Notes under the pieces: model-generated
Seen by the model: only the letters and a program-made list of their open reading frames with translations
The model's database searches: none
Told to the model about the DNA's origin: nothing
DNA from: Mucilaginibacter ginkgonis
GTDB lineage: Bacteria > Bacteroidota > Bacteroidia > Sphingobacteriales > Sphingobacteriaceae
NCBI RefSeq assembly: GCF_009754905.2
Contig: NZ_CP066775.1
Coordinates: forward strand, 3,038,001-3,102,000
Direction of reading: 5' to 3'
Length of the DNA stretch: 64,000 nucleotides
Position numbers and translations under genes: made by a program
Part shown: piece after piece, positions 25,197 through 47,628 of the stretch
How the letters are laid out: every line of letters starts with the position of its first letter
Position numbering within the stretch: position 1 is the first letter of the stretch

Positions 25197-25258
25197 GCGC
25201 TTCGACAGGCTCAGCATGACATAGCTGAATAAGCTCCCTCGCTCTGCGCGGGATGACA
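25197..25258. repeat. dispersed repeat (CTTCGACAGGCTCAGCATGACA type)
   Basis: Contains the same core as 8501-8526 in inverse orientation and ends in CGCGGGATGACA. Together with the following terminator it fills the 177-base gap between the TPR gene and the zinc-ribbon gene. Confidence 0.6.
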
Positions 25259-33449: not shown

Positions 33450-34691
33450 ATGGAATACCAGGTTTATACCTTGCCGAATGGGCTCCGTTTACTGCATCAT
33501 CCCGTAAATTCTAACATCACCCATTGCTGCATCGTTATCAATGCCGGCTCGCGCGATGAAAAGCCGGGCCAGGACGGTCTGGCGCACTTTATTGAACACC
33601 TGATATTTAAACACACCAAACGACGGAATACTTCGCAGATTTTAAACCGTCTGGAACTGGTTGGTGCCGACTTAAACGCTTATACTACTAAAGAATACAC
33701 TTGTGTGCATGCTTCTTTTTTAAATGAGCACTTAGAGCGTACGCTCGACCTTTTTGAGGACATTGTTTTCCATTCTACCTTCCCCGAAAATGAAATTGAA
33801 AAAGAGCGCGGTGTGATCCTTGATGAGATAGCGTCTTACCTTGATCAGCCCGAAGAAGCCATCCAGGACGATTTCGAAGGCCTTTTATTTGAAGGGCACA
33901 GCATGGGCTGCAATATATTAGGCGCGCCCGAAAGTGTGTCTGCACTATCGCAGCAAAATATCAAAGACTTTATTGCAGAGAATTACCTTCCGTCGCAGAT
34001 AGTGATAGGTGTATCGGGTAAATACCCGCCTGCGAAACTCACTAAGTTGGCAGAGAAATATTTCGGTCACCTGGCTTCCTCAGTTCCTGATAAAAAGCGC
34101 GTCGCCCCGCCGGTTTCAAAGCCCCAGCTTGTAAAGGCGGCAAAGCCAATCAATCAGACGCATTGCATTATGGGTTTGCAGGCATACCCATCAAATCACC
34201 CGCTTAAAAGCGCTTTGCTGCTGTTGAACAACCTTTTGGGCGGTATGGGTATGAGCAGCCGCTTGAACATGGAGATCCGCGAAAAATACGGAATTGCCTA
34301 TACTATTGAATCGTCTTACGTGCCTTTTACAGATACCGGCATCTTTAACATTTACTTTGGCACAGATGCCGAAAAAGCAGAAAGGGCATTGAAACTGGTG
34401 GGTAAAGAATTGAAAAAGCTGCGCGACAATAAGTTAGGGACAATACAGTTGCAGCAGGCTAAACAAAAGTTTTGCGGACAAATAGCGCTGGCCGAAGAGG
34501 GCCGAATGAGCTTGGTGATTTCCATGACCAAAAGCCTTCTTGATTTTAACCGGGTAGATTCTTTGGACGAAGTTATGGCTAAAATAAATGCTGTCACTGC
34601 CGATGAATTGCTGGAGATCAGCAACGAACTGCTCGATGAGTCTAAGATGGTTACGCTGATCTTTGAACCTGAAGAGGAGACAAAAAGTTAG
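33450..34691 (+). CDS. M16 family zinc peptidase
   Basis: A 413-residue pitrilysin-type peptidase resembling PqqL or mitochondrial processing peptidase. The inverted zinc motif is HFIEH (about residues 46-50) with the distal Glu in ERGVILDEI, all catalytic residues present. There is no signal peptide, so it is predicted to be cytoplasmic. The C-terminal half has the R/Y-type substrate motif region SSRLNMEIREKYGIAY. Divergent from hpt; downstream gap to 34809 holds only a repeat-like GTCATGCTGAGG fragment. Confidence 0.93.
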   Translation: MEYQVYTLPNGLRLLHHPVNSNITHCCIVINAGSRDEKPGQDGLAHFIEHLIFKHTKRRNTSQILNRLELVGADLNAYTTKEYTCVHASFLNEHLERTLDLFEDIVFHSTFPENEIEKERGVILDEIASYLDQPEEAIQDDFEGLLFEGHSMGCNILGAPESVSALSQQNIKDFIAENYLPSQIVIGVSGKYPPAKLTKLAEKYFGHLASSVPDKKRVAPPVSKPQLVKAAKPINQTHCIMGLQAYPSNHPLKSALLLLNNLLGGMGMSSRLNMEIREKYGIAYTIESSYVPFTDTGIFNIYFGTDAEKAERALKLVGKELKKLRDNKLGTIQLQQAKQKFCGQIALAEEGRMSLVISMTKSLLDFNRVDSLDEVMAKINAVTADELLEISNELLDESKMVTLIFEPEEETKS

Positions 34692-34808
34692 ATTTAACAA
34701 ATGTCATGCTGAGGTACTCAAGCATCGGCATTTACATTGTCCATTACGCCAAGCTTTAAATACGCGAGCGTTACGTTTACCTTCATTAATACTGGCGATA
34801 ATAACTTA

Positions 34809-35372
34809 TTAGGTTTTATTCTCCACCAAAAAAACCTTCGCTTCATAAACATCACCCAGCACCTCAACCCAACCACAAATGCACGCTTTAAGTCTGCCAC
34901 TTTTTAAAAGATATTGCGCTTGCTGAAAGATAAATTGTTGGTCGAATTCGGGTGTCACATAAAAGGCATGCTCGCCTTTAAAACCGTTACGGATACAAAT
35001 TTCGCCAATAACGATATTGGGCAATGTATAAACAAACAGTGCAGGGCTTGGTACGTCCTGTGCAGAGTGCCAGTACTTGATATCCGCGTCGAGGCTCGAA
35101 TTCGCGTTGGATAAGATTACACCAACCTCTTCTGCAGCGTAAAATTTAATATTGGTATCGCTCAACAAAACCTCCGCCGCAAGGAAACCCAACTTGCTCA
35201 GATTGTCCATCTTATAAAACTTTGGATAATTGATACCCAGGCTTTTATAATGGGACGCTAAAAACTCATGTGTGCTGGTTGGCATCTCCTCAAAGACCAC
35301 AGCATCTTTTTTCACAACAGTGCTATTGCTGATAGTACAGGAATCGGTGATATGTGGCTGGCCGGACATCAT
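34809..35372 (-). CDS. short ketosynthase-like protein lacking active site (possible chain-length factor)
   Basis: A 187-residue protein that matches the N-terminal half of a beta-ketoacyl synthase: FLAAEVLL, VGVILSNANSSLDADIKYW, PALFVYTLPNIVIGEI. At the position of the nucleophilic cysteine no SxACxSG motif occurs, and the C-terminal half with both histidines is missing. This resembles the short ketosynthase-like companions of aryl-polyene clusters. It starts at 35372 directly on the stop of the full ketosynthase gene (TAATG), so it is translationally coupled to it. It is the last gene of the operon. Partner role is inferred. Confidence 0.7.
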   Translation of the reverse strand: MMSGQPHITDSCTISNSTVVKKDAVVFEEMPTSTHEFLASHYKSLGINYPKFYKMDNLSKLGFLAAEVLLSDTNIKFYAAEEVGVILSNANSSLDADIKYWHSAQDVPSPALFVYTLPNIVIGEICIRNGFKGEHAFYVTPEFDQQFIFQQAQYLLKSGRLKACICGWVEVLGDVYEAKVFLVENKT

Positions 35373-36499
35373 TATTTACTAAGGATTAAAGCAGCGTTAC
35401 ATCCTCCAAAACCTGATGCCGTTTTTAACGCGTGTTTTATCTCTGCCGTCTTGTTAGTCGTGTTGATGCTTATAGGCGATGTCCCGGTTTCCTCAAAACC
35501 TAAAGTCGCGGTGATTAAGCTATGGCGCATACTTTCGGCGGCAAGTATGCTTTCGATCAACCCTGCTGCACCAAGCGTATGGCCATAAAAAGCTTTAACA
35601 CCGACGGTAGGCACGTGCTGTAAACCGGCGTTGGTAATGGCTTTTGCTTCCATATCATCGTTATAGGGTGTAGCTGTGCCGTGGGCCGATATCGTATCGA
35701 TGTCGCAGCTTGCTAACTCTGCTTCGTTCATGGCTTGTTGTATGGCAAACTCCAATTCCTCTCCGGTACGCGACGGTCCTGAAATATGGTTAGCGTCGTC
35801 AGATACTGCGCCGCCAGTTATCCTGATGTAGCCTGCATACTTTTCATCTCCGGATAAAATAACCGTTGCCGCGCCCTCGCCTAAATTTAATCCGTTGCGG
35901 CTGGCATCAAATGGTTTACAGCGTTCGCTGCTCAAAGCCTGGAAAGATTGAAACCCCGACACAACAAACTTTGATACAACATCTGCCCCGGTAACAACCA
36001 CACTTTGATAAACACCGGATTTGATCAGCCGCGCGGCTGTAATAATAGCCATCACGCCTGAAATACACGCGTTTGAAATTATGATGGGTTGAGTTCCAAA
36101 ACCGAAATAATCGGCCACTAACTTGGCAGACGTATTTAAGGATATGCGTTGCTGAAGTTCGGCCGTATTATCGTTTGTCTCGAGCAGACTGATGTTGCCT
36201 TTGGTTGTAGAAATGATCAACCCTGTTGTTGAACTTTTGGGGTCGATACCTGTGCCGCTTAACGCTTGTTGAACCGAAGCGATCAGCAGCTGTTCAAATT
36301 TGGTGTAATTAACGTTACTGCTTAATATTTGCCGCTCTTTGGGGAACAAAGATGCCGCGAGCTGAACATCGGAAAGGTCGGGGCGGTCATGAACCTGAAC
36401 GCCGGAGATGCCCTTTCTTATACTCACGAAGTTTACAGCGGTGGTGTCGCCCAGGGGCGAGAAAATATTGTCGGCAACCAGGTATACGTGCTTTGCCAT
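35372..36499 (-). CDS. beta-ketoacyl-ACP synthase (FabF/ApeO-like)
   Basis: A 375-residue ketosynthase with intact catalytic triad: Cys in ISNACISG at about residue 145, His in SAHGTATPYNDDME, and His in FYGHTLGAAGL. It is somewhat shorter than primary-metabolism FabF and is paired with the short inactive-looking homologue downstream, an arrangement typical of aryl-polyene ketosynthase/chain-length-factor pairs. It would extend an aryl or acyl starter with malonyl-ACP. Three bases separate it from the dehydratase gene. Confidence 0.85.
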   Translation of the reverse strand: MAKHVYLVADNIFSPLGDTTAVNFVSIRKGISGVQVHDRPDLSDVQLAASLFPKERQILSSNVNYTKFEQLLIASVQQALSGTGIDPKSSTTGLIISTTKGNISLLETNDNTAELQQRISLNTSAKLVADYFGFGTQPIIISNACISGVMAIITAARLIKSGVYQSVVVTGADVVSKFVVSGFQSFQALSSERCKPFDASRNGLNLGEGAATVILSGDEKYAGYIRITGGAVSDDANHISGPSRTGEELEFAIQQAMNEAELASCDIDTISAHGTATPYNDDMEAKAITNAGLQHVPTVGVKAFYGHTLGAAGLIESILAAESMRHSLITATLGFEETGTSPISINTTNKTAEIKHALKTASGFGGCNAALILSK

Positions 36500-36502
36500 C
36501 TA

Positions 36503-36916
36503 TCAGTCGGAAATAAATATTTTTAGTTCTGCACTCGCAATTAATTCACTATAGCAAAAAACCTTGCCCCAAACAACCGTTACACCCATAACCTCATCAA
36601 CTACATTAACTTCTGTTAAAAGTTGATCTCCTTGTGTAGGTAATCTTAAAACCTCAAAATTGTTTACCGCGCCGATAAACCCTTTTTTAACCGGCTCGTT
36701 GTTTTGACTAGCAATGAACCCGGCATATGCGGCAGCAGTTTGCGCCATATTTTCTAGCAATCCGCCTTCCTGAAAAATGCCATTGATGCACATCGGATTA
36801 TCGCCAATAATTTCAAACGAAGTTTTAGCGCTTTTATCATCAGCAAAAACCAACCCGTTAACCATCACAAATGGCTGCTGCTGCGGAATCAGAGTAGTGG
36901 CATCTTGTGGAAACAT
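36503..36916 (-). CDS. hotdog-fold beta-hydroxyacyl-ACP dehydratase-like protein (ApeP/FabZ type)
   Basis: A 137-residue single hotdog domain. PQQQPFVMVNGL at the N-terminus and LLENMAQTAAAYAG with the catalytic-helix glutamate resemble ApeP/FabZ-type dehydratases; the usual histidine next to PF is absent at the N-terminus. It would dehydrate hydroxyacyl intermediates to give conjugated double bonds. Lies three bases after fabG-type gene and three before the ketosynthase gene. Confidence 0.75.
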   Translation of the reverse strand: MFPQDATTLIPQQQPFVMVNGLVFADDKSAKTSFEIIGDNPMCINGIFQEGGLLENMAQTAAAYAGFIASQNNEPVKKGFIGAVNNFEVLRLPTQGDQLLTEVNVVDEVMGVTVVWGKVFCYSELIASAELKIFISD

Positions 36917-36919
36917 AAT

Positions 36920-37648
36920 TTAAGAATATAGTCCGCCGTTTACAGAGATCACCTGACCTGTGATGTAGCCTGCTTCGGGCGAAGCCAGGAAAACCGCAGC
37001 ATGGGCCACTTCATCCGGCGTACCAAAGCGCCTTACAGGTATTAAATTTTTTAACTCCTTTTCGTCCAGGCCTTCGGTCATATCAGTCTTGATAAATCCC
37101 GGCGCAATGGCGTTTACCGTGATTCCCTGGCGGCCTACTTCCTGCGCAAGTGCCTTGGTGGCACCGATGACACCGGCCTTCGCAGCCGAATAATTGGCTT
37201 GCCCCGGTTGACCTTTTAAACCTGATAGTGAAACCACGTTGATGATGCGACCGTAACGGTTCATCATCATATTTTCCAGAACAAGTTTGGTTGTGTAGAA
37301 AAAGCTGTTGAGGTTGGTATCCATTACGCCACTCCACTGCTCATCTGTCATCCAGGTCAGCAAACTGTCTCCACGGATGCCGGCATTATTAACCAGCACC
37401 TCTATGTGATGACCTGTATGCGCTTCTATCCAGCCACCTAGTTTACCGCGAATGTCTTCTTTATCGGCTACGTCGAATTGCAATAGTTCGCCTGTGCCGT
37501 TATTTTGTTGAATGGCGCTAAGTGTACTCTCTGCTTCTGTGGTATTGCTTTTAAAATTGACGAGCACGTGATAACCCATCGCCGCCATGCGCAGGCAAAT
37601 CGCCTTGCCAATCCCCCTCGATCCGCCGGTTACCAATGCGCACTTCAT
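36920..37648 (-). CDS. 3-oxoacyl-ACP reductase (FabG-like, SDR)
   Basis: A 242-residue short-chain dehydrogenase. NADPH-binding GGSRGIGKA at the N-terminus, NNAGI, the catalytic Ser in NVVSLSG and the YxxxK in YSAAKAG are all present. The C-terminal GQVISVNGG is typical of FabG. It is probably dedicated to the mini-cluster rather than primary lipid synthesis, judged by the operon. Three bases follow the ammonia-lyase stop. Confidence 0.88.
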   Translation of the reverse strand: MKCALVTGGSRGIGKAICLRMAAMGYHVLVNFKSNTTEAESTLSAIQQNNGTGELLQFDVADKEDIRGKLGGWIEAHTGHHIEVLVNNAGIRGDSLLTWMTDEQWSGVMDTNLNSFFYTTKLVLENMMMNRYGRIINVVSLSGLKGQPGQANYSAAKAGVIGATKALAQEVGRQGITVNAIAPGFIKTDMTEGLDEKELKNLIPVRRFGTPDEVAHAAVFLASPEAGYITGQVISVNGGLYS

Positions 37649-37651
37649 TTC

Positions 37652-39205
37652 TTAGTTGGTTATTGGTGCTATAAATGGTGTGGCTGTCTCTAAAAACTCG
37701 CGCACATTTTTCTGTGTCTTGTATTGCGGTGCGTCTTCAACAAAAACAGGGAATATTTCGCGCACGCGGTCATAAATTTCTGCAGATGCTGTCGATAACC
37801 GGTCGCGGCAACCCATGTGGTCGATCGCTTGCAGAATAGACATCAATTGAATGGTCAAAACCTCGAACGTATTGTCTATCACTTTCTTGGTCATAATAGC
37901 AGCGTTGCAGCCCATGCTCACCATGTCCTGGTTATCATTATTGTTCGGGATGCTATGCACATACATCGGGAAAGACAGCGTCTGATTTTCTGCCACGGTA
38001 GATACGGCGGTGAACTGTACGCCTTGCATACCAAAATTCAATCCCAACACGCCTAAATTCACAAACGGCGGGAATTTCTGGTTCAGCTTTTGATTTAGCA
38101 GATAATTCAACTGCCTTTCGGAAAGCATAGACAATTTGGTTATAGCTATTTTAAGCTTGTCCATTTCCAGGGACACATAATCGCCATGGAAGTTACCGCC
38201 GTGAAATACATTGTTATTAATGTGATCTATAACCGGGTTGTCATTTACCGAGTTGATCTCATTCTCTAACACAACGCCCGCGCTGTGGATAGTATCATAA
38301 ACAGGACCTAATATCTGGGTAACGCAACGAAGTGAATAGTATTCCTGCACCTTGTCTTCAAACACTTCCTGGTTAAGGTTATCGGGATTATATAGATGTT
38401 CTGACCGGCTGCGGATAAGTTTACTATCTTTCAATATCGCGCGCATCTGCGCGCCTATCTTACTTTGACCTGGGTGCAGTTTTACCACGTTCAGCTCATA
38501 GGAGTAATGGTCATCATAAGCCTCGACGATCTCATTCATCATTGATGACAGCAACACCGACCAGCTCAGCAACTTCTGCGCACGCAGTATATTTACCATC
38601 CCGATGCCGGTCATAGCAGAGGTACCGTTGATGATGGCCAACCCTTCGCGGCCCTCAATCTCAAGCGGAGCGATATTCAGCTCGGCGAAAACCTCCGTTG
38701 TTGGCCTCACTTCATTTTTATAGATAACTTCGCCTTCGCCGATAAGTGCCAGACCTAAATGGGCTAATTGTACCAGATCGCCGCTGGCACCCACGCCGCC
38801 ATGTTCAAAGACACACGGTGCCACGTCGTTATTAATGAGCTGGGTCAGTAATTCCAAAACCCTTGCCGGCACCCCTGATCGGGCTTTAATAAAGCTGTTT
38901 AGCCTGGCTACCATCAGCGCTTTAACCAAGTGGGTGGGCAATAAGTTTCCGCTGCCGGATGAATGGCTGCGTATCAAATTATATTGCAGTTGCAGCAAGC
39001 TGTCATCGCTTATTTTATATTGGGCCATTGGGCCAAAGCCCGTATTTATGCCATAGATAAGTTTGTTTGACGAGAAACTTTTAAGAAAATTATAGTTGGC
39101 TTCAACCTCTTCCAGAGCGGCCTTGTCTAATGTTACTCCTTGTTGATGAAAAATTATTTCAGAAAAATCTTGTAAGGGCAATTTACCTTGTCCAACAACT
39201 ATCAT
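37652..39205 (-). CDS. aromatic amino acid ammonia-lyase, tyrosine ammonia-lyase-like
   Basis: A 517-residue MIO-dependent lyase; the autocatalytic Ala-Ser-Gly is in GVGASGDLVQ at about residues 140-142. The active-site region INTGFGPMAQY and QYNLIRSHSSG, plus VHSIPNNNDNQDMVSMG, closely match my memory of the Flavobacterium johnsoniae tyrosine ammonia-lyase rather than classical HutH. That enzyme makes 4-coumarate for flexirubin. It is the first gene of a five-gene operon with fatty-acid-type elongation enzymes, and there are no hut genes nearby. Tyrosine specificity is inferred, not shown. Confidence 0.85.
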   Translation of the reverse strand: MIVVGQGKLPLQDFSEIIFHQQGVTLDKAALEEVEANYNFLKSFSSNKLIYGINTGFGPMAQYKISDDSLLQLQYNLIRSHSSGSGNLLPTHLVKALMVARLNSFIKARSGVPARVLELLTQLINNDVAPCVFEHGGVGASGDLVQLAHLGLALIGEGEVIYKNEVRPTTEVFAELNIAPLEIEGREGLAIINGTSAMTGIGMVNILRAQKLLSWSVLLSSMMNEIVEAYDDHYSYELNVVKLHPGQSKIGAQMRAILKDSKLIRSRSEHLYNPDNLNQEVFEDKVQEYYSLRCVTQILGPVYDTIHSAGVVLENEINSVNDNPVIDHINNNVFHGGNFHGDYVSLEMDKLKIAITKLSMLSERQLNYLLNQKLNQKFPPFVNLGVLGLNFGMQGVQFTAVSTVAENQTLSFPMYVHSIPNNNDNQDMVSMGCNAAIMTKKVIDNTFEVLTIQLMSILQAIDHMGCRDRLSTASAEIYDRVREIFPVFVEDAPQYKTQKNVREFLETATPFIAPITN

Positions 39206-39289
39206 GCGCAGATTCTAATGGTATATAAAACGGGTAAATTTAGAAAATAAATCGGTTTGCCGTTGGTCTTTGGCGAACTTAGGCAGCGC

Positions 39290-39892
39290 TTACGATTTGA
39301 ATTTTATACAGCCGCGCGCTTTATCTATCGCCTTAAAAAATTCAGCCCCTTTGTCGTTGGTTAAGCAGACAGCGGTGATGGCACCCGTGCGGTTTTTTTG
39401 CAGTACAATGATCAGCGCATAACGGTAATGGCGGGTCTCTGCCGAATCGTTCAAGTTTACCAGATACGATTTGCCCTCATCTGCCTGGTACTGGTTCAAT
39501 ATACGCGGACTAAGGTTACGCACAAAATAATCATTATCAGCGCTAAAGTTGCTGATCTGGTCTTTGGCAAGGCTTAAATAAGCCGAGTCGGCCATTCCTC
39601 TGTAATGCCGGGCTAGTTTTTTATAAGAACGCACTGCAAACCATATTTCGAAATCAGAACCTACAGGTGCCATTCCATAGTCCATTTCATTATCATCAGG
39701 CAAACGGTTGTTCAGTTCTTTAAATCCTTCGGGAAGATTAAAAGTAATGCCGGCTTCTGTAGTTGCCTTGATAAAAGATTTTAATTGCCTGCTTTGATTA
39801 AGCGGCTGGGTTTGTGCACGGGCAATGCCTGCTGTAACAAGCAGGGTCACTATAACAAATATTTGTTTAAATTGCCTCAGAGTAGGTCTCAT
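39290..39892 (-). CDS. exported hypothetical protein
   Basis: About 200 residues from the ATG at 39892, which gives signal peptide MRPTLRQFKQIFVIVTLLVT followed by an AGIARAQ cleavage region; a longer frame adds ten residues that look non-native. The mature part has a GITFNLPEGF strand and no recognised domain. It sits between the ammonia-lyase operon and the divergent APC permease. Function unknown. Confidence 0.7.
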   Translation of the reverse strand: MRPTLRQFKQIFVIVTLLVTAGIARAQTQPLNQSRQLKSFIKATTEAGITFNLPEGFKELNNRLPDDNEMDYGMAPVGSDFEIWFAVRSYKKLARHYRGMADSAYLSLAKDQISNFSADNDYFVRNLSPRILNQYQADEGKSYLVNLNDSAETRHYRYALIIVLQKNRTGAITAVCLTNDKGAEFFKAIDKARGCIKFKS

Positions 39893-39998
39893 TGCACTTT
39901 CAGGTAATCGGCTGCGAGCCAAAAGCCTTAACGAATATAAGTGTTTTAATGTTTCGCAATACTTTCTTACAAACTTTAATTTTTAACCAATTTGATAA

Positions 39999-41327
39999 AT
40001 GGGTATAAAACCACGGCTTAACCGGTTTGACCTTACCATAATAGTTGTCAGCCTCATTATAGGCATGGGCATCTTTAAATCTGCCAATGAAGTTGCCAAC
40101 CGCGCCGGCCAAACCTGGGTGTTTTTCGCTGCCTGGATTTTCGGCGGGCTGGTAAGCCTTTGCGGCGCGTTAACATTTGCAGAGATTGGCGCCCGTTATC
40201 CGAATACCGGCGGTTTTTATAAAGTTTTCTCTTACTGTTATCACCCGGCGTTCGCCTTTATGATCAATTGGGTATTGGTGATCAGCAACGCTGCATCTGT
40301 AGCGGCGGTGGCCATCATTGGCGCAGAGTACATCAACCCCATGATCATGCCGGCAAGCTTACAAAATGATACCGGTGTAAAGATCATGACCATAGGCTCG
40401 GTACTTATTCTATATGTCGTTAACTTTCTGGGTATAAAAACCAGCGCGCGTACACAAAATGTGCTCACCATTTTAAAGGTGGCCATGATCGTAGTGCTGT
40501 GTACACTGATCTTTAAAAGCAATGTTACGCCGAATGCCATTAAGCCGTTGATACATCACGGCAGTTTGATCACATCCTTCGGCTTAAGTCTGGTCGCTAT
40601 ATTCTTTACTTATGGCGGCTATCAGCAAACCATCAACTTTGGCGGGGATATCATAGATGCCAAACGCAATATTCCGAAAGCGATAACCGCAGGGATGTTA
40701 ATTGTGATATTCCTTTACCTGAGCATCAATTACGCGTACTATCATGTTTTAGGATTAGGCGGTATGCAGAGTACCACAGCCTTAGCGGCAAATTTGGCGG
40801 GGGTGTTGTTCGGCAACATCGGTTATAAGTTCTTCTCCATCATGATGTTTGGCTCTGTGCTGGCTTACATTAACGTGAACGTGATGTCTAACCCGCGCGT
40901 TTATTACGCCATGGCCGAAGACGGCGTACTGCCGAAGATCTTTATGCGCGTAAACCCACGCACCCAGATACAGGAATTTGGCATGAGCTTTTTTGTGGCG
41001 GCTATCCTCATCGTGCTGCTGCTTAACGTCTCTTTTTCTAAGATGCTGAACTATGTAATGTTTTTTGATACCATAGGTCTGTCAATGGCCGCGGTATCGA
41101 TATTCATCCTGCGAAACAAAACAAAAGAACTGGATGGCACCGGAATTTATACCATCAAATGGTTTCCGCTTATACCGCTTATATTTATCATCAGCTACTG
41201 GTTTGTGACCATCAACATTTTTGCCGACAATCCTTTTGCCGCGCTAATCTGTTTAAGCGTTTTCGTGGCCGGATTGATCATTTACTACATCAGCACGTAT
41301 TTTAAAAGGAAAGCCAACGCGGCTTAA
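39999..41327 (+). CDS. APC-superfamily amino acid permease
   Basis: A 442-residue inner-membrane transporter with about twelve hydrophobic helices. The N-terminal GMGIFKSANEVANRAG and the GALTFAEIGARYPNTGG block are hallmark amino acid-polyamine-organocation permease motifs. Substrate is not predictable; an aromatic or sulfur amino acid is possible from context. The gene is eight bases before a PLP enzyme gene, suggesting an operon. Confidence 0.9.
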   Translation: MGIKPRLNRFDLTIIVVSLIIGMGIFKSANEVANRAGQTWVFFAAWIFGGLVSLCGALTFAEIGARYPNTGGFYKVFSYCYHPAFAFMINWVLVISNAASVAAVAIIGAEYINPMIMPASLQNDTGVKIMTIGSVLILYVVNFLGIKTSARTQNVLTILKVAMIVVLCTLIFKSNVTPNAIKPLIHHGSLITSFGLSLVAIFFTYGGYQQTINFGGDIIDAKRNIPKAITAGMLIVIFLYLSINYAYYHVLGLGGMQSTTALAANLAGVLFGNIGYKFFSIMMFGSVLAYINVNVMSNPRVYYAMAEDGVLPKIFMRVNPRTQIQEFGMSFFVAAILIVLLLNVSFSKMLNYVMFFDTIGLSMAAVSIFILRNKTKELDGTGIYTIKWFPLIPLIFIISYWFVTINIFADNPFAALICLSVFVAGLIIYYISTYFKRKANAA

Positions 41328-41335
41328 TTACGCCT

Positions 41336-42496
41336 ATGGAACTCTCTTATATTTTAAATGAACTTGGCGAAGACAGGGACCAATACTTTAACGCTGTCGC
41401 ACCGCCAATTATACAAACCAGCAATTTCGCGTTTAAAACCGTTGCCGACTTCCGTAAGGCTTTAGGAAATGAGTTTGATGCCGATCTGTATTCGCGCGGC
41501 AATAACCCTACGCTGAATATCTTGCGTAAAAAGTTGGCCGCATTGGATGGTGCCGAGGATGCTTTAGTCTTCAGCAGCGGGATTGGTGCTATCTCCGTGC
41601 CGATCCTTTCCTTGTTAAAGCAAGGTGATCATGTTATATCGGTAGAAAACCCCTACAGCTGGACGATAAAGCTGTTCAATAATTTTCTGCCCAAATTTGG
41701 CATCACCACTACCTTTATTGACGGACGGGATGTAGCAAACTTTGAGCAAGCCGTACAACCCAACACCCGGCTCATTTACCTGGAAAGCCCGAATACTTTT
41801 AGTTACGATATTCAAGATCTGGCGGCTATTGCCGCGCTGGCAAAGCCGCGTGGGATACTGACAATGATCGACAACAGTTATTGCACGCCATTATATCAGC
41901 AGCCCATAAAATTAGGGATCGACCTGGTAGCGCAATCGGCAACAAAATATATCGGCGGCCACTCAGACGTGGTGGCGGGCGTTGTCACCGGCAGCCGGGA
42001 AATCATTACTAAGATATTTCATAATGAGTTTATGAATATCGGCCCGTCACTGTCGCCACATGCGGCATGGCTGCTCATACGCGGGTTGCGCACGCTCCCG
42101 CTACGCCTGCAACGTAGCTTCGAGTCGGCCAAGATTGTTATTGAATGGCTAAGCAAACACACCGCGGTTGCCGAAGTGCTTTGGCCTTTCGCGGATGGCT
42201 TTGCACAGGCAGATCTTGCGCGCCAGCAAATGAATGGCTGCGGTGGGTTGTTCAGCTTTATTTTGAAGGATTCATCTTTCGATAAGATCGAGAAATTCTG
42301 CAACAGTTTGCAGCATATCCTTATGGCCGTATCATGGGGCGGGCACGAGAGTCTGGTGATCCCGTCCATTGCCGGGGTGCCCGCTAAAGATTATGATCCT
42401 GCTAACCGCCGGCATCAATTGATACGCATGTACGTAGGTTTAGAAGAACCTGAATATTTGATCAGGGATTTGGAAAAGGCCATTAATGGATTATAA
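41336..42496 (+). CDS. PLP-dependent transsulfuration-family enzyme (Cys/Met metabolism)
   Basis: A 386-residue member of the cystathionine gamma-synthase/lyase family. The PLP lysine is in AQSATKYIGGHSD, with YSRGNNPT near the N-terminus, SSGIGAISVPIL and the C-terminal RMYVGLEEPEYLIRDL block. It could be a methionine or cystathionine gamma-lyase or a synthase; the family cannot be split with confidence by eye. Its coupling to an amino acid permease favours a catabolic role. Confidence 0.88.
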   Translation: MELSYILNELGEDRDQYFNAVAPPIIQTSNFAFKTVADFRKALGNEFDADLYSRGNNPTLNILRKKLAALDGAEDALVFSSGIGAISVPILSLLKQGDHVISVENPYSWTIKLFNNFLPKFGITTTFIDGRDVANFEQAVQPNTRLIYLESPNTFSYDIQDLAAIAALAKPRGILTMIDNSYCTPLYQQPIKLGIDLVAQSATKYIGGHSDVVAGVVTGSREIITKIFHNEFMNIGPSLSPHAAWLLIRGLRTLPLRLQRSFESAKIVIEWLSKHTAVAEVLWPFADGFAQADLARQQMNGCGGLFSFILKDSSFDKIEKFCNSLQHILMAVSWGGHESLVIPSIAGVPAKDYDPANRRHQLIRMYVGLEEPEYLIRDLEKAINGL

Positions 42497-42531
42497 AAGT
42501 GTCTTCGTATATTTAAATTTATAAAACACTT

Positions 42532-44058
42532 ATGTCGTTAGAAGAATATTGGAAATCGCTTGGCTTTCTATCTAATCCTTTTCAGTTTTCAAATGCTGAT
42601 AAGGAAGTAGAATTTTTAAGTGAATATTTTATAAAACCAGACTACTTTGAAGATGTTTGGGGAGACCCTTATAATCCAGTCTCTAATATAATTTACGCTC
42701 CAAGGGGTGGCGGTAAAACTGCCCAACGCATTATGATTGAAAAACGCGCGAAATTAACGGACGATATTTTAACGATTACCTATACGAATCATGATTTAAG
42801 TCAGGTTGTCGATATCAATCACGTTGATTTGCAATATCATTTGACTTATCTAAACCGCCTCATGTTACTTGCGTTTTTCAGTCGAATTGAAACTGACGAT
42901 TTAAAATTTGCATTCGCTTTTAACCTTACTGAAAGACAATACATATATAAGCTAGCACGGATCTACCTTTATGAAACACCTGCATCTTTTCCGAATCAGG
43001 CAATAGCATCTCTGAAGACAATTAGTGATCACGCAATTGGATTATGGAATAATTTTAAAGAACCCATTGCTAACATTATCAGACAAATATCCAAGGCCAA
43101 GGGTATAGAAATAGATTTATCAAAAGTAGAGATTGATAAAAAACTAGTGATGAGTCATAAAGACAACTTTATGAATATATCCTCTCTACTTAGAAGAGTT
43201 GGCTACAAAAGCTTGATGGTGTTAATTGATAAGGTTGATGAACAGAGCCTAACAGGAAACAACCCAGAAGCCAGTTTTAAACTAATTGAGGTACTGCTAA
43301 AGGATTTAGAGTTGATTGAAACGCCGTTTGTGTCATTTAAATTTTTTTTGTGGGATGCAATCAAACAATACACTGTGGTAGCAGCCCGTCCCGATAGAGT
43401 TTTTCCATATGATTTAAAGTGGACGTGGAGCCAAATGCAGGAAATGCTAAACCAAAGGGTTAAATCATACAGTAAAGGTAAGGTGACTGAGTTTCTGTCA
43501 TTGGTACCTTCAACCAAAATGCTTGGAAGAATCATCTTGTTTTCCGAACTCTCCCCAAGAGATTGCATAAGAATTTGCAATCGTATACTTTCAGAACAAT
43601 TTAAAACAGATCCAACATCAAAGGTTTTTACTGAAGATGTAATTAATCAATCATTGGAAATATTTTGTAAAGAAAAAGCGCAAGAACTGATTACAAACGC
43701 TAACAATTTGCGGTATTTAACTAAAACAAACAGGGTATCCTTTACCATTGAAGATTTGGTGAAAAATAAGGTCGCTTCTGATTCACCGGCAGTGCGAAAC
43801 ATAATTTATCCATGGACGACGGCTGGCTATTTAAAAAAAATCGGTCTTCAAAGTAGAAAGCACGCAAAAGCGGTAAATGAATATGCTTTTCAAGATATAA
43901 GACTTGCTTATATGGCCTGCCCAACGCTAACAATTGAGGAGTTTGTTCGGTCCAAGGCTTATAGATGTAGAATTGCCTCTTGCCGTGAAGTATTTTATAG
44001 AGATTTTGATTCGGGTGATTATACTTGCCCCCAATGCAACACGGCGGCATATTCCTAA
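42532..44058 (+). CDS. orphan P-loop ATPase with C-terminal zinc ribbon
   Basis: A 508-residue protein. The start SLGFLSNPF is typical of STAND/ORC-like ATPases. Walker A APRGGGKT is at residues 56-63 and a Walker B-like LMVLIDKVDE at about 228-237. The C-terminus has a zinc ribbon with cysteines near 479, 484, 499 and 502. Residues between look helical. Codons are visibly AT-rich compared with flanking genes, and the gene is alone between a PLP enzyme and aconitase, suggesting horizontal gain. Similar orphan ATPases occur in defence islands, but no partner effector gene is adjacent. The specific family is not certain. Confidence 0.8.
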   Translation: MSLEEYWKSLGFLSNPFQFSNADKEVEFLSEYFIKPDYFEDVWGDPYNPVSNIIYAPRGGGKTAQRIMIEKRAKLTDDILTITYTNHDLSQVVDINHVDLQYHLTYLNRLMLLAFFSRIETDDLKFAFAFNLTERQYIYKLARIYLYETPASFPNQAIASLKTISDHAIGLWNNFKEPIANIIRQISKAKGIEIDLSKVEIDKKLVMSHKDNFMNISSLLRRVGYKSLMVLIDKVDEQSLTGNNPEASFKLIEVLLKDLELIETPFVSFKFFLWDAIKQYTVVAARPDRVFPYDLKWTWSQMQEMLNQRVKSYSKGKVTEFLSLVPSTKMLGRIILFSELSPRDCIRICNRILSEQFKTDPTSKVFTEDVINQSLEIFCKEKAQELITNANNLRYLTKTNRVSFTIEDLVKNKVASDSPAVRNIIYPWTTAGYLKKIGLQSRKHAKAVNEYAFQDIRLAYMACPTLTIEEFVRSKAYRCRIASCREVFYRDFDSGDYTCPQCNTAAYS

Positions 44059-44063
44059 AAACA

Positions 44064-44091
44064 AAGCGCCCTTGCTTTCGCAAAGGCGCTT
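44064..44091. terminator. hairpin after orphan ATPase gene
   Basis: AAGCGCC-TTGC/GCAA-GGCGCTT forms a strong stem just after the ATPase stop. The T-tract is weak on the plus strand, so efficiency is uncertain. Confidence 0.6.
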
Positions 44092-44101
44092 GATATTCTT
44101 A

Positions 44102-44158
44102 GTTCCCTCTCTTTCGGAAGTCCCGATAGCTATCGGGAGGGGAGAGGTCGATTTGGGG
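44102..44158. repeat. dispersed repeat with CCCGATAGCTATCGGG palindrome
   Basis: CCTCTCTTTCGGAAGT followed by the perfect 16-base palindrome at 44122-44137 and GGGGAGAGGTCGATT. It fills the gap up to the aconitase stop. The GGGGAGAGGTC word recurs, on the opposite strand, at about 49259-49280. Confidence 0.6.
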
Positions 44159-46423
44159 TTAAGCCTGCTGCCTGCGGATAATGTTCAACGCGCCGCCTGC
44201 TTTAAACCATTCTATCTGCTGTGCATTGTAGGTATGGTTAACCGGGAATGAATCCGTTGAACCGTCTGCATGGTGCAATACAACTTCTAACTGTTTGCCA
44301 GGCGTAAAGGTGGTCAAGCCCAGGATGTCGATCACGTCATCTTCCTGTACTTTTTCGTAATCTGCCGTATCGGCGAAGGTGATGCCCAGCATACCTTGTT
44401 TTTTCAAATTGGTTTCGTGGATACGGGCAAATGATTTTACCAATATGGCACGTACGCCTAAGTGGCGTGGCTCCATTGCCGCGTGCTCGCGAGATGAACC
44501 TTCACCGTAGTTTTCGTCGCCCACAACAACGGTACCAATGCCATGCGCTTTGTAATCGCGCTGAGTTGCAGGAACCGGTCCGTATTCGCCGGTCAGTTCA
44601 TTTTTAACCGAGTCAGGACTGTTATTGAAGTAGTTGATCGCACCGATCAGCATATTATTAGAAATGTTGTCCAGGTGGCCGCGGAACTTCAACCACGGGC
44701 CGGCCATAGAAATGTGGTCGGTAGTACATTTGCCTTTGGCTTTGATCAGCAGGCGAAGGCCTGTAATGTCTGTACCTTCCCAGGGCGCAAACGGGTCAAG
44801 CAGTTGCAAACGTGAAGAATTCGGATCAACGATCACTTCAACCGTGCTGCCGTCTTCTGCAGGTGCCTGGTAGCCGGCATCTTCAACCGCGAAACCTTTT
44901 ACCGGCAGCTCTATACCCATCGGCTCGTCAAATTTCACCTGCTCGCCGTTTTGGTTGGTCAGGGTATCTGTCAACGGGTTGAAAGTTAGATCGCCCGCGA
45001 TAGCGAAAGCGGTGACAATTTCCGGAGAGGCTACAAACGCGTGTGTATTTGGGTTACCATCCTGGCGTTTAGCAAAGTTGCGGTTAAACGATGTGATGAT
45101 GGAGTTTTTGCGGGTAGGGTCGTCGGTATGACGTGCCCACTGACCGATACAAGGTCCGCAGGCGTTAGCCAAAACCACACCGCCGATCTGCTCGAAGGTG
45201 TTCAGGTATCCGTCGCGTTCCACGGTGTAACGTACCAGTTCTGAACCTGGTGTTACGGTATACTCAGCCTGTGCTTTCAGGTTTTTATCTGTTGCCTGCT
45301 GCGCTATAGACGCCGCACGGGTGATGTCTTCGTAAGACGAATTGGTACATGAACCTATCAGGCCCACTTCCAACCTTTCGGGCCAGCCGTTTTCTTTAAC
45401 CGCTGCCGCGAATTTTGATATCGGCCAAGCCAAATCGGGGGTGAACGGACCGTTAACGTGTGGCTCCAATTCGCTCAGGTTGATCTCTATTACCTGGTCA
45501 AAATAAGCGGAAGGATTCGCGTAAACTTCCTCGTCGCCTGTAAGGTGTTCTTTTATGGCATTAGCCGCGTCTGCTATCTCAGCACGTTTGGTACCGCGCA
45601 GGTAAGCTTCCGCTTTTTCATCATAACCGAAGATCGACGTAGTTGCACCTATCTCTGCACCCATGTTACAGATGGTTCCTTTGCCTGTCGCAGACAGTGA
45701 ACGCGCGCCTTCGCCAAAGTATTCTACAATAGCGCCGGTACCGCCTTTAACGGTCAAGATGCCTGCTACTTTCAGGATAACGTCTTTAGCTGATGCCCAG
45801 CCTGATAATTTACCTGTGAGGTGGACGCCTATCAGTTTAGGGAATTTTAGCTCCCAAGGTAAGCCGGCCATTACGTCGCAGGCATCGGCACCGCCAACAC
45901 CAATAGCGATCATACCCAAGCCACCTGCGTTAGGTGTATGTGAGTCAGTACCGATCATCATACCACCCGGGAAAGCATAGTTCTCTAATACTACCTGGTG
46001 AATAATACCTGCACCCGGTTTCCAGAAACCGATGCCATATTTATCAGAAACCGACGACAAGAAATCATAAACTTCTTTATTGATGTCCTTCGCGGTAGAA
46101 AGATCTGTATCTGCGCCAATTTTGGCTTGTATCAGGTGATCGCAATGCACTGTAGATGGTACGGCAACCTGCGGGCGGCCTGCCTGCATAAACTGCAATA
46201 GCGCCATTTGCGCGGTAGCATCCTGCATGGCCACGCGATCTGGTGCAAAGTCTACATAGTCTGTACCGCGCTGGTAAGTCTGTGAAGCTTCGCCGCCGGA
46301 AAGGTGGGCGTATAATATCTTTTCGGTTAAGGTTAGTGATTTACCGGTCGCCTGGCGGGCCGCGTTAATGCGGCTGTTGTAGCGATCGTAAACCCTTTTA
46401 ATCATGTCTAAATCAAAAGCCAT
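44159..46423 (-). CDS. acn: aconitate hydratase (mitochondrial-type)
   Basis: A 754-residue TCA-cycle enzyme that interconverts citrate and isocitrate. The [4Fe-4S] ligand cysteines are in [11 protein letters not shown] and ACGPCIGQW. Active-site blocks [28 protein letters not shown] and [17 protein letters not shown] are all present. The N-terminus [15 protein letters not shown] matches the mitochondrial-type branch common in Bacteroidota. The 434-base gap upstream carries its promoter region but no clean TAnnTTTG. Confidence 0.95.
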
Positions 46424-46857
46424 TGTATTTGATTTTTAAAAGTAAAACGTAGAAAATCCGGCAGGAAAGTTCCAATCGGACTAATTCGGCGAATGTACAA
46501 AATTTAACAGGCAAAAGGGATATTGGGTTTGCGCAATCGTTATTTAGATGCGTTTTAAATAATGTCAGCAGGTATGGCCTAACTGCTCCGCACTCTGGTA
46601 GAAAAAGCAGTTTGACAAGACAGAAGGTCTGTGAAGGGTAGTGGCATTGATTTGCCAGTGTAACACCTGTTACAGATGTGTGACACTTTTTGACGAATTT
46701 TGGCAAAAGTGAAACAATGACATTATCATGCATGGTTGATTATCAGCTTCTTGCAACGCTGACATGATAGCGTCAGATACCAATAAGTCAGTATTTGGTA
46801 GAGAATCTGTCACATGTTACACCCGTCCATCAGCTGACGGATTAGTGAATTGAGCAT
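46424..46857. other. 434-base intergenic region with palindromes, no gene
   Basis: Between aconitase and the DUF1835 gene. Open frames here have no family resemblance. It holds the palindrome TGTAACACCTGTTACA (46659-46674), a degenerate relative TGTCACATGTTACA (46809-46822), and a CCGTC/GACGG hairpin near 46824-46842. Nothing resembling an RNA gene was found. Confidence 0.5.
46659..46674. repeat. 16-base palindrome TGTAAC-ACCT-GTTACA
   Basis: Perfect six-base arms with an ACCT centre. It differs from the 8727-8742 palindrome only by a compensating pair of changes (TT/AA swapped to AA/TT). Confidence 0.65.
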
Positions 46858-47628
46858 TTACAGCCCCAGTTTATCGAGATAGATATCAATCTGTTTATCG
46901 CCCATCCCGTATATCGAGTTATCTTTCCAAAATGCCTCATAGATGGCGGGCCGGGATGTAATTCCGCTATTATAAATCTCCAGCAGCGTTTGCTCGATGT
47001 AGTTATACCCAGCAGCGTTAACCTCTAAGCGTTTTACATGTGCCTCCATAGCCGGTTTAAGCGCATGCAAGCTGCCCCAGAATGAATTCGTGATAAGCCA
47101 GGTCTTTAGATTTTCTGCATCGCCCGCGATATATAATTGCCAGGCTTCAGCAGCGAGTTTAAAGTCGTAATCCGTAAGCTGAATGCGGTCATCGAATAAC
47201 GTTTCTAACTGCCCGCCACTAAGCTGACCAAGTCCGCGGAAGTTGTCAACGCCCGGAACGGTATCAGGGCAAATTAGGTGTACCGCGCGTTCTGACAGGT
47301 CGGTTTGCTGGTTAAGCATTTGCATTACGCCCAGCAGGTTCACCTGGCAAAATAAATCAAACTCGAACCATAGGTTTATCTCATCGTATGGCTCATTGAT
47401 CTTTGCCAGTTCCGTTGCTTCCCAGTTAAAATATTCCTGCTCAGAAGCATTATACGTATTGCTGATCCATTGCGCACGCATTTTCCAAAACCCGGCATCC
47501 AGTGTGTTTGCAACCGGCCCTTCGGACAAAGTTTCCCGCCAGATGAGGGTATCGCCCTCAATACCGCAATCTATAAAACCGGGTAAGGTTGCGTCGCCGT
47601 TGAGAATGTGTAAGGTTTGAGAATTCAT
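46858..47628 (-). CDS. DUF1835 domain protein
   Basis: A 256-residue protein starting MNSQTLHILNGDATLP, with LIWRETLSEGPV typical of DUF1835. The C-terminal IYGMGDKQIDIYLDKLGL matches the companion DUF3658-like region. DUF1835 proteins are widespread and functionally uncharacterised. The gene begins eight bases after the DNA ligase stop, so it is most likely part of the exonuclease-ligase operon. Confidence 0.85.
   Translation of the reverse strand: MNSQTLHILNGDATLPGFIDCGIEGDTLIWRETLSEGPVANTLDAGFWKMRAQWISNTYNASEQEYFNWEATELAKINEPYDEINLWFEFDLFCQVNLLGVMQMLNQQTDLSERAVHLICPDTVPGVDNFRGLGQLSGGQLETLFDDRIQLTDYDFKLAAEAWQLYIAGDAENLKTWLITNSFWGSLHALKPAMEAHVKRLEVNAAGYNYIEQTLLEIYNSGITSRPAIYEAFWKDNSIYGMGDKQIDIYLDKLGL

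Follow-up and report, generated by a model that had tools for sequence, protein, structure and literature searches.

Flexirubin is a yellow-orange pigment of many Bacteroidetes. Its biosynthetic gene clusters are reported to be widespread in that phylum (268 clusters in 252 strains; PMC9248904). In Chitinophaga pinensis, FlxA is reported to convert tyrosine to 4-coumarate, with a 1010-fold specificity over phenylalanine and an undetectable histidine product; FlxA and FlxY were shown biochemically to yield 4-coumarate and 4-coumaroyl-CoA; DarA and DarB are described as making the dialkylresorcinol; and the dar genes (Cpin_6850/6851) lie far from the flx genes (Cpin_1853-1877), as they are unlinked in the genome considered here (PMC3992019). 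Aryl-polyene (Ape) systems are related in part: ApeC of the ApeO:ApeC complex is described as a half-size chain-length factor (CLF; PMC8358021), ApeI and ApeP as heterodimeric dehydratases with one active site (PMC8041823), and 4-hydroxybenzoate as the starter (PMC8253772). Here we describe a five-gene operon in a 64,000-nucleotide window of Mucilaginibacter ginkgonis (C1:3038001-3102000 of a one-contig, 3.70-Mb genome rated 99.99% complete), which we read, with a probability of roughly 0.9, as the flxA-flxB-dehydratase subunit-ketosynthase-CLF part of a split flexirubin pathway that a probable inversion, some 76 kb long, has cut.

The gene set of this genome resembles the flexirubin clusters of C. 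pinensis and F. johnsoniae in holding FlxA, FlxB, FlxY, several ketosynthases, dehydratases and DarB. It differs from them in being compact, without a lysophospholipid acyltransferase (LPLAT) and a full-length resistance-nodulation-division (RND)/MMPL exporter, in its spread over four loci, and in the one cut inside its polyene operon. With the Ape systems of Xenorhabdus, Acinetobacter and E. coli it shares a predicted half-size CLF beside a catalytic ketosynthase (as in ApeO:ApeC) and a predicted two-protein dehydratase, whereas the starter here would be tyrosine-derived 4-coumarate and dar genes are present. Compact clusters in M. agri, M. polytrichastri and four further genomes of the genus (G025, G033, G013 and G018) carry the same genes in the same order, from the tyrosine ammonia-lyase (TAL), FabG-like and dehydratase (DH) genes to the ketosynthase (KS) and the half-size ketosynthase-like protein (KSs). 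In these six genomes the operon is continuous with a second ketosynthase block, KS1b-KS2b-DHb, and a converging dar operon, whereas here it is cut off and KSs is shorter.

The five open reading frames (ORFs) all lie on the minus strand, at the positions and with the spacing given by the sequence-only reading (Table 1): 3 bases separate the genes at each of the first three gaps, and the last two overlap by 1 base. The conservation of both order and sequence in relatives rules out a chance arrangement. That reading had recognised a TAL-type enzyme followed by elongation enzymes of the aryl-polyene type, and the FlxA and FlxB profile matches, both above their cut-offs, bear this out. It had also remarked that a ligase and dialkylresorcinol genes are missing from the locus; they are, and we located them outside the window in the same genome. 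No acyl carrier protein (ACP) was seen at the operon, though the small ACP-like ORFs of the window were not exhaustively searched.

Table 1. Features of the operon and of the two junctions of the probable inversion (window positions unless preceded by C1).
Feature	Position	Strand	Evidence
FlxA, tyrosine ammonia-lyase, 517 aa	37652..39205	-	NCBIfam NF053541, 836.2 bits vs cut-off 700
FlxB, beta-ketoacyl-ACP reductase, SDR family, FabG-like, 242 aa	36920..37648	-	NCBIfam NF053542, 383.5 bits vs cut-off 340
Predicted hotdog dehydratase subunit, 137 aa	36503..36916	-	Residue pattern in alignment; FabZ structures in profile search
Catalytic ketosynthase (KS), 375 aa	35372..36499	-	Cys145/His273/His307 intact; ApeO among PDB matches
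Half-size ketosynthase-like protein (KSs), 187 aa, without catalytic Cys	34809..35372	-	Structure model, Foldseek
Proximal inversion junction, M16 gene to KSs gene	34692..34808		M16-Pdf adjacency, synteny table, junction letters
M16 peptidase gene, outside the pathway, flank of the proximal junction	33450..34691	+	Pfam PF00675/PF05193
Distal inversion junction, outside the window	C1:3148323-3148452		M16-Pdf adjacency, synteny, junction letters

The operon had been taken for an orphan, a view that the rest of the genome does not support: the remaining flexirubin genes are present, with FlxY, DarB, DarG and DarH all above their cut-offs, and the suggested genome search for an unlinked ACP, a 4-coumarate ligase and dar homologues recovered ACP, FlxY and DarB. 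A second locus, at C1:3148453-3157729 and 71-85 kb from the operon, encodes KS1b, KS2b and a second hotdog dehydratase (DHb) on one strand and, on the opposite strand, ACP, an ABC permease, an ABC ATPase, DarH, DarG, DarB, a probable DarA and a 160-aa protein. The DarB, DarG and DarH genes, at C1:3153374-3156331, were assigned by their NCBIfam profile scores (DarB 623.9 bits vs cut-off 550; flexirubin DarG 195.9 vs 170; DarH 454.5 vs 300). An accessory set at C1:3229097-3232707 (3.23 Mb) comprises a short-chain dehydrogenase/reductase (SDR), a dehydratase, a KS, an ACP and a phosphopantetheinyl transferase (PPTase), and a set of this type adjoins the dar operon in G010, G025, G033, G013 and G018. 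The 4-coumarate-CoA ligase FlxY (C1:3588385-3589659; 661.4 bits vs cut-off 520) lies about 0.5 Mb from the operon beside a hydrolase gene, a relative of which adjoins AcpS and a ligase in L089. The flexirubin set is thus spread over four loci. M. agri, M. polytrichastri and a lichen metagenome-assembled genome (MAG) likewise have FlxY away from the operon, on separate contigs in two of the three and 333 kb away in M. polytrichastri, so within this group the present genome stands out only by the cut that follows the window operon.

That cut is probably the work of an inversion. In the lichen MAG, too, the operon runs on into KS1b, where the contig ends. The genes for the M16 protease and peptide deformylase (Pdf) are adjacent and on the same strand in all 11 relatives searched, with 13-861 bases between the matches. 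Here, M16 abuts the end of the operon and Pdf abuts KS1b, and both operon and Pdf are reversed relative to their outer flanks. Two broken adjacencies that have exchanged partners are the signature of one reciprocal inversion, of about 76 kb, whose breakpoints would have fallen between KSs and the next ketosynthase gene (KS1b) and between M16 and Pdf. In the comparison with M. agri, the blocks flanking each junction are collinear and have the expected orientation; M. polytrichastri agrees on the Pdf side. The sequence-only reading had offered a split cluster as one possibility, and in this it was right: the partner blocks are contiguous with the operon in relatives and apart here.

We propose that the aryl-polyene half of a flexirubin gets its starter, and some of its elongation enzymes, from this operon. 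FlxA would convert tyrosine to 4-coumarate, which FlxY would activate from its distant locus. Elongation on the ACP may then proceed through two ketosynthase pairs, putatively KS/KSs and KS1b/KS2b, with beta-keto reduction by FlxB and dehydration by a two-protein dehydratase, to give a polyene acid. The dialkylresorcinol would come from DarA and DarB; DarH or DarG may link it to the polyene acid, and the ABC transporter may export the resulting ester. The sequence itself shows the family assignments, the partner genes, the order of genes in relatives, both new junctions and the shortened end of KSs; the product, the subunit pairs, the joining and export steps and the functional state are inferred.

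Our analysis of the dehydratase predicts that its active site is divided between the two separated loci. The window hotdog protein has no Pfam match and matches FabZ weakly (32.6 bits vs cut-off 113), and its profile matches FabZ structures (E 2.1e-6). The catalytic Glu is present in all 25 aligned rows of this subunit and the GHFP/GHYP motif in none; some His stands within 20 columns ahead of the Glu in 4 of the 25. The proposed partner, encoded at C1:3150662-3151066 and about 76 kb away, shows the reverse, with His in 14/14 rows and Gln replacing the acid in 13/14. A search with the partner's profile matched 6qsr_A (E 1.3e-6), which we take to be the ApeI:ApeP complex. No ApeP chain was listed in the PDB search with the window subunit's profile, so the comparison with ApeP rests on the residue pattern and on the partner's match to 6qsr_A. 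Together, the window subunit and its distant partner are predicted to form an ApeI/ApeP-type pair with complementary active-site halves. G033 departs from the pattern on both sides, with a GH near the usual place in its window-type subunit and an Asp in the partner, and is therefore no clean fit. In the G010 cluster (L036/L037, G010:C2:1726420-1732473), TAL runs straight into KS, and FlxB and both dehydratase subunits are gone from the locus; the joint absence fits the two subunits being partners.

The Cys145/His273/His307 triad of the window KS is conserved in 25 of 25 rows, and ApeO (6qsp_A) is among its PDB matches (E 1.9e-31). The sequence scores of its neighbor KSs are weak (FabF 18.8 bits; PF00109 18.0 bits, below cut-off), a PDB sequence search returned chance antibody matches only, and the KSs profile gave a single weak PDB match (6kxd_B, E 0.62). 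The AlphaFold model (pLDDT 74, pTM 0.75) can nevertheless be superposed on FabF-type ketosynthases over their N-terminal half (VIA Z up to 14.0), and its best Foldseek matches are the CLF chains of the ishigamide pair, 6kxd/e/f_B (E 5e-7). ApeC (6qsp_B) ranks tenth in Foldseek (E 3e-5) and is not among the 50 VIA-align rows listed; neither sequence nor profile searches detected a relation between KSs and ApeC. With one thiolase-fold half, no catalytic Cys and a place beside a catalytic KS, KSs is predicted from its model to be the CLF partner. At the second locus, KS2b is likewise Cys-less and lies beside KS1b.

Several observations weigh against a single clean cut in a working pathway. In M. 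polytrichastri the block upstream of TAL is oriented as it is here, which implies a further local rearrangement between these species. The order in G033 (M16-Pdf...TAL...KS1b) is the pre-inversion one, but with other genes in between, and in both M. agri and M. polytrichastri KS1b lies about 86 kb from M16 and the cluster is upstream of M16. The differences between these genomes therefore go back to more than one event. The two breakpoints share no repeat, their longest common stretch being 7 bases, as in shuffles. DarA, moreover, is presumed by position alone: the 299-aa ORF adjoins DarB, a position conserved in relatives, and finds no match in NCBIfam and none of significance in Pfam. The remaining points concern the consequences of the cut. 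KSs ends 2 residues past its FLVE motif, compared with 16-26 residues in 27 of 28 relatives (in the 28th, the motif search matched elsewhere), and is thus 14-24 residues shorter; the inversion appears to have left the C-terminus shortened, and by eye, in six frames, no remnant of the lost codons was seen at the distal junction. Using TTTG-N19-TAnnTTTG, which we take to be the Bacteroidetes promoter consensus, we found nothing promoter-like, even with 2 mismatches allowed, in the 255 bases upstream of flxA. The ratio of a protein's distance to that of its M. agri counterpart, measured against outgroups, points to faster change in three of 13 comparable pathway proteins (KSs 1.29, DHhot 1.33, ACP 1.40), which could mean decay.

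The shortened KSs, these faster rates and the bare upstream region of flxA would all suit a remnant, in which the operon was cut, the C-terminus of KSs was lost and flexirubin is no longer made. We consider this unlikely, though it deserves to be taken seriously. The remaining pathway ORFs that we found have normal length, catalytic residues are intact in both ketosynthases and both dehydratase subunits checked, and the other ten of the 13 proteins have ratios of 0.94-1.12. Moreover, the severed second half has a promoter-like site of its own: TTTG-N19-CATATTTG, with 1 mismatch, lies 45 bases ahead of the KS1b start, and in M. agri, M. polytrichastri and the lichen MAG the KSs-KS1b spacer has no such site, even with 2 mismatches allowed. 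With a spacing of 19 bases and at most 1 mismatch, chance would yield 10.85 such sites per 64 kb on both strands and about 0.01 in the KS1b spacer; for all four spacings that were tried, the latter figure becomes about 0.04, and the motif was sought after the fact. The dar operon, too, has a promoter-like site with 1 mismatch, at 20-base spacing. The near-normal rate of ten proteins and the site at KS1b suggest that the pathway is probably, though not certainly, functional. It is conceivable, if rather doubtful, that the product is a flexirubin of altered length, since the CLF is trimmed, the two halves of the elongation machinery would be on different promoters about 76 kb apart, and ABC export may have replaced the LPLAT/RND route.

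An assembly error might also mimic an inversion. In M. agri and the lichen MAG, the spacer between KSs and KS1b contains palindromic TGTCATTGCGAG-type repeats, and the region has others like them. A repeat-mediated misjoin would leave gene ends intact, however, whereas the end of the KSs gene is changed and shortened, and both junctions are consistent with a single reciprocal event in a highly complete, one-contig genome. We therefore regard misassembly as improbable.

Other features of the region are recorded here for completeness. The spacer element, TGTCATTGCGAG...CTCGCAATGACA, is palindromic, belongs to a kind repeated in these genomes, and was found at L057:14499-14640 and L091:11563-11720 (M. 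agri and the lichen MAG). Exact copies of TGTCATGCTGAG stand at window positions 25210-25221 and 34702-34713, the latter in the proximal junction; 0.22 occurrences would be expected in the window at up to 1 mismatch, and 2 of 100 shuffles had as many. On the other side of the operon, about 7.6 kb (window 39206-46857) separate flxA from the gene that is its upstream neighbor in M. agri (window 46858-47628). This interval holds a hypothetical gene, an amino-acid permease, a pyridoxal-phosphate enzyme and an aconitase (the last two named by eye), and a 508-aa ORC-CDC6-like P-loop protein (20.5 bits, below cut-off).

Since the operon and the dar genes occupy separate places in this genome, the operon might make a separate hydroxycinnamate-derived polyene that is never joined to a dialkylresorcinol; the sequence-only reading had likewise considered a compact polyene of this kind, or new chemistry. 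We find a separate polyene very improbable, and new chemistry is not supported. The gene families are curated as flexirubin, and in relatives the operon and the dar genes form one block. The ligase, the ACP and the His-bearing half of the dehydratase are all encoded at other loci, and a stand-alone pathway was rejected on these grounds. The operon could hardly work alone, because its own dehydratase has the Glu without the His.

The lyase matches the aromatic-lyase Pfam family at 531 bits, is the sole Lyase_aromatic match in the genome, is 82-83% identical to the lyases of M. polytrichastri and M. agri, and contains GGVGASGDL, which we take to be the methylidene-imidazolone (MIO) motif (A-S-G). 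The tree places it in one group (100/100) with its counterparts from M. agri, M. polytrichastri and the lichen MAG. This tree kept 68 rows, 38 of them in no named group, after rows outside 400-650 aa and the window's duplicate were dropped, and with the longest ORF used for L003-L032; its weak spots are the aberrant branches L027 and L026 and the support of the Flx/Hut split (75/56). Urocanase (PF01175) had no match in the genome, while control matches were found in 5 of 14 genomes, 4 of them above cut-off; with neither urocanase nor a second aromatic ammonia-lyase, the enzyme is not one for histidine breakdown. A complete flexirubin cluster elsewhere in the genome, with a TAL of its own, or a lyase grouping with HutH, had been named as possible objections; the search returned no second TAL, and by scores, tree and the lack of urocanase the lyase came out with FlxA. 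That it is a histidine ammonia-lyase next to an unrelated fatty-acid operon is hardly credible: Pfam alone does not separate the two activities and HutH models do match the lyase at 415-431 bits, but these scores (414.7 vs 539 and 431 vs 524) fall below both HutH cut-offs whereas FlxA's own is exceeded, and the missing urocanase and the tree position speak against it as well.

The widespread occurrence of flexirubin clusters and the precedent for separate flx and dar loci place the pathway described here among those of known kind. ABC transport is not new for flexirubin either: transporters of the ABC-2 type have come up in connection with the flexirubin clusters of Dyadobacter and F. johnsoniae (PMC9606717). 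What is less expected is that the polyene operon is cut internally, that the CLF is shortened and that the gene set is compact. Among the papers listed on flexirubin and rearrangement, or on flexirubin clusters in Mucilaginibacter, we found nothing on such a split, which is a weak absence. The compact set recurs: LPLAT was found in three of 11 genomes (G012, G030 and G019), the same three that have a full-length RND/MMPL exporter match, while the other eight, this one included, have no LPLAT and only weak, partial RND/MMPL matches. The long flexirubin type in those three genomes (L042/L043, L049/L050 and L053), with LPLAT, RND exporter and further genes, shows that two types coexist in one genus.

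In summary, unlinked loci can complete a pigment operon that looks incomplete on its own, and cluster finders based on adjacency may therefore miss or misname such a pathway. The compact set is a hint that fewer genes may suffice for flexirubin. Moreover, this genome is a natural test case for flexirubin synthesis with a split operon and a shortened CLF.

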